38,260 nt of DNA, taken from contig JAGAOP010000037.1 of the NCBI GenBank assembly GCA_017623685.1, positions 1-38,260 of the forward strand, written 5' to 3'. Positions 2,512-4,001 of the stretch are shown one piece after another; the stretch's first letter is position 1, and every line of letters begins with the position of its first letter. Origin of the DNA: Spirochaetaceae bacterium (GTDB lineage: Bacteria > Spirochaetota > Spirochaetia > Treponematales > Treponemataceae). Below the pieces are notes generated by a model, which searched no databases, had not been told where the DNA came from, and saw nothing but the letters and a program-made list of their open reading frames with translations. The translations under genes were made by a program, and so were the position numbers.

Positions 2512-3369
2512 CTACTTTATAGCACCAAATTTACAAGCACTTTTACATTCACCACAACGGATACATTCTCGGTCATTTATTTTTAGAGTGTCCATTTTGC
2601 AAACATTTATACAGGCGTTACAATTTGTACATTTTGTTGCGTCTACTTTGATTCCAAAGATAGCTTTTTTATTAAAAAAAGAATAAATTGCTCCCAAAGG
2701 ACAAAAAAATCGGCAAAAAGGTCGGAACATAAATACAGACCAAACTATAAAACCCACAGCCAATGCTGTTTTCCAAGAAAAAAGAAATCCTACCGCAGTC
2801 CTTAAAGTTTCATTTGCTATCAATAAAGGCCAACCTGCAAAAATTGTTCCTTCGGGACAAAGCCACTTGCAAAAAAAAGGGGAACCGTATCCATCTTTTG
2901 CAAAATATATCAAAGGTAAAACAATACATAAAACTACAAGAATTACATATTTTATCAAAGAGAGCTTTCTTGTTATAGGACGAAGTTTTGCTGAATGTTT
3001 TATCTTTGGGGAAGGAATTTTATGCAGTAATTCTTGAAATAGTCCGAAGGGACATAAAAAAGAACAAACCATTCTACCTATCAAAGTTCCAATCAGTAAC
3101 AAAAAACCTGTAACAAAAAAAGGAAATTTTCCTGCAGCCAAGCTATTTTGCAAAGCTCCCAAAGGGCATGAAGCCACAGAACCAGGACAAGAATAACAAT
3201 TCAATCCGGGGACGCAAATGTTTTTTGTATTAACTCTAGAAATTGTACCAGTAAACCAATTTTTTACATCTGCATTGTAAATTAATGCAGATAGTAATTG
3301 TATTAGCCGCCTTTGAAACAAAATTTTCTGGCTAGACTTACTAAGTTTACTTATTTCTTCTTTAGCCAA
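2512..3369 (-). CDS. NapH/YccM-like membrane polyferredoxin (4Fe-4S)
   Basis: This 285-residue protein has several membrane helices and many cysteine clusters: CYSCPGSVASCPLG near 58-71, three CxxxCP motifs (CSFLCP about 102, CKWLCP about 167, CRFFCP about 219), then two C-terminal 4Fe-4S motifs, CTNCNACINVC (247-257) and CIRCGECKSAC (269-279). This layout is that of the NapH/NosR/YccM family, which moves electrons from quinol or cytoplasmic donors across the inner membrane. The start appears to be TTG at 3369-3367, with GGAG 10 nt upstream. The first codons overlap the stop of the CXXC microprotein by 8 nt, so translation is probably coupled. Together with the TlpA gene, it suggests an electron route to a periplasmic thioredoxin (inference). 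Confidence 0.85.
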   Translation of the reverse strand: MAKEEISKLSKSSQKILFQRRLIQLLSALIYNADVKNWFTGTISRVNTKNICVPGLNCYSCPGSVASCPLGALQNSLAAGKFPFFVTGFLLLIGTLIGRMVCSFLCPFGLFQELLHKIPSPKIKHSAKLRPITRKLSLIKYVILVVLCIVLPLIYFAKDGYGSPFFCKWLCPEGTIFAGWPLLIANETLRTAVGFLFSWKTALAVGFIVWSVFMFRPFCRFFCPLGAIYSFFNKKAIFGIKVDATKCTNCNACINVCKMDTLKINDRECIRCGECKSACKFGAIK

Positions 3370-3505
3370 TTCCGATGCACTCCATGCAAATAAAAATTGC
3401 TTTTAGATAAATATCTTTATTGTTTCCCAAAAATATTCCTAAACTTATTAACACAACTGCAAGTACAAGCAGCAAAACTTGGCTTAGTTTTATTTTACTC
3501 TGCAT
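3362..3505 (-). CDS. CXXC-motif microprotein (CD1871A-type), 47 residues
   Basis: This small gene is easy to miss. It begins at ATG 3505-3503, overlaps the end of the TlpA gene by 11 nt, and stops at TAA 3364-3362 inside the start of the polyferredoxin gene. The product is one hydrophobic helix (about residues 8-27), a short polar stretch GNNKD, and a C-terminal IFICMECIGIG with a CMEC redox pair at 40-43. The tail and size agree with the family annotated as CD1871A CXXC motif-containing protein, first named from Clostridioides difficile, which I recall as often found beside TlpA and 4Fe-4S genes. The CXXC would sit just outside or at the far face of the membrane, placed to relay electrons or dithiols between the polyferredoxin and TlpA (inference). 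Confidence 0.85.
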   Translation of the reverse strand: MQSKIKLSQVLLLVLAVVLISLGIFLGNNKDIYLKAIFICMECIGIG

Positions 3506-4001
3506 AATCTGCTACAAATCGTTCAATTTGTTTCTTATTCATCATTCCTACATGAATTTTTATAATTTTTCCATCTGGAGAAATTAGCATAGAAGTTGGA
3601 ACTCCCTGTATTCCATAGGCAAAAGCAACTTTTCCAGTTTCATCCAGAGCAGTAGGAAAGGTGTAACTATTTTTTTCCATAAAGTTTGTTAAATCTTTTT
3701 TTGTATCAGAAATAGCTATGGCTAAAAAATCCATTTTGGCATTTTCACCTTGAGTTTTAAGTTTTTTTGCAAGGGCATCCATTTCGGGCAATTCAATTCT
3801 GCAAGGAGGACACCATGTTCCCCAAAAATGCAGAAATAAAACCTTTCCCTTATAGCTATCCAAAGTTACTTTTTCACCACTGCGAAGTGTAACAGAAAAA
3901 TCCGGTGCCACACTTCCTTCTTTTATTGTCTGACTAAAAACAGGTGAAAATAAAATAAATAAAAACACCAACAAAAAAATTATTTTTCGTGAATTGTTCA
4001 T
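3495..4001 (-). CDS. TlpA-family thioredoxin-like disulfide reductase
   Basis: The 168-residue protein has an N-terminal signal segment (residues 5-23, ending VFSQ), so it is periplasmic or membrane-anchored. The thioredoxin fold begins with the peroxiredoxin-like SVAPDFSVTLRSG, followed by the active site WCPPC at 63-67 and the cis-proline loop GVPTSMLISPDG near 138-149. TlpA/ResA proteins keep periplasmic thiols or haem-binding cysteines reduced. A strong AGGAGGAG lies just upstream of the ATG. It is the first gene of a three-gene overlapping operon on the minus strand, followed by the CXXC microprotein and the polyferredoxin, which are its probable electron source. Its own partner substrates cannot be read from the sequence. 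Confidence 0.92.
   Translation of the reverse strand: MNNSRKIIFLLVFLFILFSPVFSQTIKEGSVAPDFSVTLRSGEKVTLDSYKGKVLFLHFWGTWCPPCRIELPEMDALAKKLKTQGENAKMDFLAIAISDTKKDLTNFMEKNSYTFPTALDETGKVAFAYGIQGVPTSMLISPDGKIIKIHVGMMNKKQIERFVADYAE

Follow-up and report, generated by a model that had tools for sequence, protein, structure and literature searches.

How might a bacterium keep an extracytoplasmic thioredoxin reduced when its genome shows no DsbD or CcdA? The question is raised by a locus in a 38,260-nucleotide stretch of DNA from a Spirochaetaceae bacterium (the window), where the genes for a TlpA/ResA-like thioredoxin, a microprotein (M) and a membrane polyferredoxin (P) overlap on the minus strand (Table 1). 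An earlier note on this DNA had proposed that the three proteins carry electrons through the membrane to periplasmic thiols in place of DsbD/CcdA, which it had not seen here. That absence extends to the whole assembly, a 1.91-Mb draft of 84.8% completeness that yields no PF02683 and no PF13386 match. The overlaps that the note had described, 11 nt between TlpA and M (3495-3505) and 8 nt between M and P (3362-3369), are borne out by the open reading frame list.

Table 1. Coordinates of the three genes and of their principal features in the window
Feature	Position	Strand	Description
TlpA	3495..4001	-	168 aa; TlpA/ResA-like thioredoxin, predicted extracytoplasmic; from open reading frame list
N-terminal signal/anchor segment of TlpA		-	Sequence read by eye
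WCPPC redox motif, TlpA residues 63-67	3801..3815	-	Sequence; motif tally in relatives
Microprotein M	3362..3505	-	47 aa; basic N-terminus, hydrophobic segment, C-terminal CMECIGIG
CMEC of M, residues 40-43, then IGIG and stop	3377..3388	-	Sequence
Membrane polyferredoxin P, NapH-like	2512..3369	-	285 aa; TTG start within 3' end of M
C52-x5-C58-x2-C61-x6-C68 of P	3166..3216	-	Predicted outer face; missing in E. coli NapH; C52, C58 and C61 in 73/73, C68 in 72/73
C102-x3-C106-P of P	3052..3066	-	Predicted inner face; common to P and NapH
C167-x3-C171-P of P	2857..2871	-	Predicted outer face; missing in E. coli NapH; 73/73 rows
C219-x3-C223-P of P	2701..2715	-	Predicted inner face; common to P and NapH
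C-terminal di-cluster ferredoxin domain of P (C247 to C279, eight cysteines)	2533..2631	-	Predicted cytoplasmic

Because all three match Pfam or NCBIfam models over cut-off, they are genuine genes and not chance open reading frames. TlpA matches AhpC-TSA (90.6 bits) and Redoxin (87.1 bits), and P matches Fer4_5 (64.3 bits) and Fer4 (40.1 bits). By score (41.5 bits against a cut-off of 32), M is a member of the CD1871A family (NCBIfam NF040920, CD1871A_fam). TlpA has a redoxin domain of thioredoxin fold together with a WCxxC motif, the combination that marks TlpA/ResA thioredoxins, and falls under the cut-off of the narrower ResA model (NF002854; 129.3 vs 170 bits). P falls under the NapH cut-offs (TIGR02163, 54.7 vs 213.05 bits; NF007013, 40.6 vs 234 bits); its closest named relatives are annotated as '4Fe-4S binding protein' in Spirochaetaceae and Treponema. 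The note had expected the microprotein gene to be overlooked, but NCBIfam names its family and RefSeq annotates it, for example in Peptoclostridium acidaminophilum, where a CD1871A-named gene neighbours that of a 4Fe-4S binding protein and the two overlap by 8 nt, as here. The NF040920 description gives a name and no function, and a search of 5.39 million papers for the word CD1871A found no occurrence. Convergent with the triad on the plus strand (821-2452) is a gene for a 543-aa protein with a flavodoxin-like N-terminal domain (Flavodoxin_2, FMN_red) and a C-terminal region that weakly resembles the VC0807 family; an NCBIfam search at 1e-10 gave no match for it.

The grouping of these genes is conserved well beyond this genome. 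In a sample of 392 genomes from the phylum, M was found by NF040920 in 66 (63 over the curated cut-off) and P in 67 (E <= 1e-40); 65 of the 66 M-bearing genomes have the two side by side on one strand. The exceptions to the pairing were a sub-threshold M with P on a different contig (G010), a P alone (G074) and a second M copy in G369. Around M at 30 of the phylum loci (1.5 kb per side) we found M, P and TlpA together in 23, M and P in 6, and M and TlpA in 1. For named genomes we took the loci of the best 80 of 588 relatives of P, a set that is biased because it was picked by similarity to P; it spans spirochaetes, Clostridia, Negativicutes and one Slackia. An M-like gene occurs in 79 of these best 80 of 588 loci: it adjoins P in 74, is fused to it in 1 and lies elsewhere in the locus in 3, and the remaining one has an additional C-terminal tail (L105); L073 has a degenerate remnant only. 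TlpA, too, lies within the locus in 79 of the best 80 of 588 (the sole exception is L103). Sorted by arrangement, 30 of the 80 loci have TlpA fused to P, 30 have it upstream and 16 downstream, with 4 left uncategorised. The note had named one finding that would speak against its relay, that the three genes often occur apart from one another; this was looked for and not found.

The overlaps themselves vary. Among 108 M genes, which take in 2 without P in the locus and 2 without a start codon, 13 have a 1- or 4-nt overlap and 49 another start; the 8-nt TTG overlap is present in only 42. Such overlaps suggest translational coupling, rather than the enforced equal expression that had been claimed for them. 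No fourth gene emerged: among 70 linked neighbours we found no enriched partner, no linked reductase and no Pfam family common to more than 4, so that the unit looks general.

Some individual loci deserve mention in their own right. Oceanirhabdus seepicola (G437; L108, L145, L151, L156, L157) has five M matches and two DsbD_TM matches. In P. acidaminophilum (L159, NZ_CP007453.1) the triad lies on an 809-kb plasmid, with an opposite-strand MFS gene between TlpA and M. In genome G173 (L017 / L124), which has no DsbD_TM match, the polyferredoxin is split across two frames next to an intact M. Two short, unannotated records from human stool labelled 'Bacteriophage sp.' (MT836098.1 and MT836032.1) encode a relative of P at 44-45% identity.

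Natural fusions suggest on which side of the membrane the partners of P work. In the 30 TlpA fusions among the best 80 of 588 loci, P is followed by a hydrophobic helix and then by the TlpA domain in one protein; in two other proteins (L040/P0122 and P0123) it is followed by a hydrophobic helix and then by M. With the ferredoxin domain inside, both designs would put TlpA and the CxxC of M outside. An outside position fits because in both the partner comes past a hydrophobic helix that follows the ferredoxin domain. In 30 of the best 80 of 588 loci, a count that leaves out the P-M fusion L040, M forms the end of a longer open frame of 168-362 codons (for example L046, L051, L058 and L087); these frames are mostly beside a P-TlpA fusion, and those read by eye look like multi-helix membrane proteins.

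The cysteines of P, too, can be assigned to sides of the membrane. In place of the five iron-sulfur-type motifs first counted, an alignment of 73 P sequences shows 18 conserved cysteines in six clusters, of which 17 are invariant and the eighteenth (C68) is conserved in 72. The sole P without C68 (L063) has tryptophan instead and adjoins an intact M; this could be an assembly error, or C68 could be a non-essential ligand. In an alignment with E. coli NapH, 12 cysteines are common, namely the eight of the ferredoxin domain with C102, C106, C219 and C223, and C52, C58, C61, C68, C167 and C171 have no counterpart. These six extra cysteines are predicted to face outward because their loops are poor in lysine and arginine and the other non-membrane segments are rich: with segment borders drawn by hand, on the basis of the model and the sequence, the inner segments contain 29.6 (N-tail), 19.1 and 14.4 K+R per 100 residues and the outer loops 8.5 and 5.6. 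The AlphaFold2 model of P is good, with a pLDDT of 87.9 and a pTM of 0.84; Foldseek with this model against solved structures gave no match at E up to 0.001. P would hold two ferredoxin clusters and one inner cluster, with outer cysteines sufficing for one further cluster plus a dithiol.

M is 47 residues long, as the note had it, but its end is CMECIGIG and not CMEC, and the description as a single helix is doubtful because M appears as two helices in a model of the natural P-M fusion, a model that is poor overall (pTM 0.33) and carries no information on docking. In 10 of 46 sequences the more positive charge does not lie on the N-flank of M, which counts against the pathway proposed below. 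One M gene stands out: in genome G536 (L116 3425-3535) a TGA occupies the first cysteine codon of the CxxC, followed by LECIGIG and a stop. The same genome carries SelB, a tRNA-Sec beside SelB, and SelA and SelD upstream, making this M a candidate selenoprotein microprotein. None of the other M matches listed has an internal stop. The hairpin behind the TGA is unremarkable (z -1.0), and a TGA in a single genome may be a sequencing error. If it is a genuine selenocysteine, the first cysteine of the CxxC would be a redox thiol.

Do genomes with the triad dispense with CcdA/DsbD? In the phylum sample DsbD_TM occurs in 249 of 392 genomes, but its share is 8 of 66 where M is present and 241 of 326 where M is absent (odds ratio 0.049, Fisher p 2.5e-21, kinship ignored). 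Counted by genus, DsbD_TM occurs in an M-bearing genome in 8 of 23 genera; of the 143 genera that lack M, 125 have it (p 2.4e-7, kinship again ignored); when DsbD_TM in any genome of the genus is allowed, a hand tally gives 11 of the 23. Neither system is obligatory, since 85 of the 326 phylum genomes without M lack DsbD_TM as well. In a sample of 331 Clostridia genomes M is present in 51, DsbD_TM in 170 and both in 17; DsbD_TM thus accompanies 17 of 51 genomes with M and 153 of 280 without (odds ratio 0.415, p 0.006, kinship ignored). Near the window, M and DsbD_TM thus exclude each other strongly, whereas Clostridia show no more than a trend. The labels spirochaetes and Clostridia for the genomes of these samples were taken from named relatives. 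Among 50 named P-bearing genomes examined from the best 80 of 588 P loci, 5 have DsbD_TM.

The genus of the source organism offers the closest comparison. Its four other sampled genomes all have DsbD_TM and neither M nor P, and in each DsbD_TM is found with TlpA: as one open reading frame in two (L117, L119), 110 nt apart in a third (L118), and on the same strand with about 330 nt between them in the fourth (L120). For three of the four, the position of DsbD_TM was confirmed in the locus sequence. In these four relatives CcdA, which is unrelated to P, would do the job of the triad. P itself gives no PF02683 (DsbD_TM) match at E up to 1. The proposed replacement of DsbD/CcdA is accordingly upheld in part: the linkage of M and P, the fusions, the switch of partner within the genus and the anticorrelation with DsbD_TM speak for it, but it is not strict, as the 8 phylum and 17 Clostridia genomes with both attest. 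What the earlier note observed is confirmed, and most, though not all, of its interpretation is supported by the genome comparison.

We conclude that TlpA, M and P form a conserved three-part unit, which probably serves as a transmembrane thiol-reducing pathway and would be the iron-sulfur counterpart of CcdA/DsbD. From the three genes, their linkage, their fusions elsewhere, the set of conserved cysteines and the low frequency of DsbD_TM in genomes with M, all of them observed, we infer electron transfer, its direction, its donor and the cluster content as follows. Low-potential electrons, probably from ferredoxin, would enter the cytoplasmic di-cluster domain of P and cross the cluster held by C102, C106, C219 and C223 to the outer face. 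There the six cysteines that NapH lacks would provide for a further [4Fe-4S] cluster and a redox dithiol, an arrangement resembling that of ferredoxin:thioredoxin reductase. M would be a membrane-anchored peptide with its CxxC just outside the membrane; it would accept two electrons as a dithiol and pass them to the WCPPC of TlpA, which in turn would reduce disulfides outside the cytoplasm.

A possible objection concerns the part given to M, which could instead be a structural subunit that contributes its two cysteines as the last ligands of an outer-face iron-sulfur cluster of P, with electrons going from P-M to TlpA or another acceptor and no dithiol step in M. The arithmetic is attractive, for the 18 conserved cysteines of P and the 2 of M make 20, exactly five four-cysteine clusters, and M adjoins P or is fused to it. 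The CxxC-[IVM]-G end of M is also strongly conserved, as a docking element might be, in 107 sequences that were kept only if CxxC-[IVM]-G-[ILVA] stood near the C-terminus, so that the conserved pattern reflects this selection. Against this, the CxxC of M is followed by I/V/M-G and has neither the CP nor the CxxCxxCxxxC pattern found in the clusters of P, and one M has a TGA at its first cysteine in a genome that decodes selenocysteine. Selenocysteine typically takes the place of a redox thiol rather than that of a cluster ligand. We consider a structural role for M rather unlikely.

Two further objections leave M aside. The anticorrelation with CcdA might be a by-product of ancestry or life style, in anaerobes that lose CcdA anyway, with the triad doing something unrelated. 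The much weaker effect in Clostridia and the phylum genomes that lack both M and DsbD_TM (85 of 326) would suit such an account; we nevertheless judge it improbable, given that the effect has the same direction in the phylum and Clostridia samples and holds by genus (8/23 vs 125/143), and that all four other sampled genomes of the source genus have CcdA with TlpA and no triad. Alternatively, electrons might flow outward for another purpose, such as reduction of metals, flavins or sulfur compounds or a NapH-like quinol-linked step, with TlpA an accessory. NapH-like proteins have been proposed to supply diverse extracytosolic reductases, in the available text of PMC8238504, and NapH models match each of the 73 P sequences at E up to 0.001. 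Such an output seems highly improbable to us when no reductase is linked, any one Pfam family is common to at most 4 of the 70 linked neighbours, 30 of the best 80 of 588 loci have a P-TlpA fusion, and TlpA is paired with CcdA in the four genomes from the source genus.

Our preferred reading, a transmembrane route for thiol reduction, invites comparison with known systems. The job proposed for the triad is that of DsbD/CcdA, to bring electrons across the membrane to an extracytoplasmic TlpA-type thioredoxin, and DsbD/CcdA and P are each fused to TlpA in some genomes. The two show no sequence relation in the PF02683 search (E up to 1), and their chemistry would differ: CcdA passes electrons by dithiols, whereas P would use iron-sulfur clusters. 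In its last step P would work like ferredoxin:thioredoxin reductase, where a cluster beside a dithiol turns one-electron donors to disulfide reduction. That reductase is a soluble enzyme of plants and cyanobacteria, whereas P is a predicted membrane protein, and the catalytic subunit is absent from the 13 Pfam families that P matches at E up to 1.

P belongs with the broad group of NapH-like transmembrane ferredoxins (NapH, NosR, PceC), which have Fer4_5, two CxxxCP pairs and a C-terminal di-cluster ferredoxin; profile comparison gives a probability of 98.7, and both ferredoxin clusters are common with E. coli NapH. It differs from the group in the six additional cysteines placed at the outer face and in having thiol partners rather than FMN domains or nitrate reductase. 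A 2021 paper, in its available text, describes NapH-like proteins as conduits that carry electrons through the membrane to FMN proteins and reductases outside the cytosol (PMC8238504).

The three-gene operon has already been described, with its mechanism left open, in the available text of a preprint of November 2025 (PMC12637426), which reports a previously uncharacterised three-protein 4Fe-4S / TlpA / CxxC operon of gut Clostridia; these are the same three kinds of gene, in one operon, as here. The preprint, as far as available, is a biomarker study in which immune side effects are predicted from the abundance of the operon; its authors mention 3-4 transmembrane segments and the possibility that extracellular targets are reduced. 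The available main text has no CcdA, DsbD, periplasm or Treponema, and the arguments made here from substitution, fusion, cysteine topology and selenocysteine do not appear in it. The reading that we offer unites the available accounts of PMC12637426 and PMC8238504, as a NapH-like conduit with a thiol output.

We put forward, tentatively, a second and unrelated route by which reducing power may reach outer thiols in Clostridia and spirochaetes: an iron-sulfur wire that spans the membrane and ends on the outside in a dithiol enzyme. A peptide of about 45 residues would couple it to TlpA, the hand-over point being a CxxC at the C-terminus of that peptide, which in at least one species would read UxxC. 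If this is true, the triad would keep the extracytoplasmic thioredoxins reduced in the 58 of 66 M-bearing phylum genomes that have no DsbD_TM match, and CD1871A, a named family without a function, would gain a job. It would also show one-electron iron-sulfur chemistry being converted to disulfide reduction across a membrane, and would give a mechanism to an operon that the 2025 preprint, in its available text, links to the side effects of cancer immunotherapy (PMC12637426).
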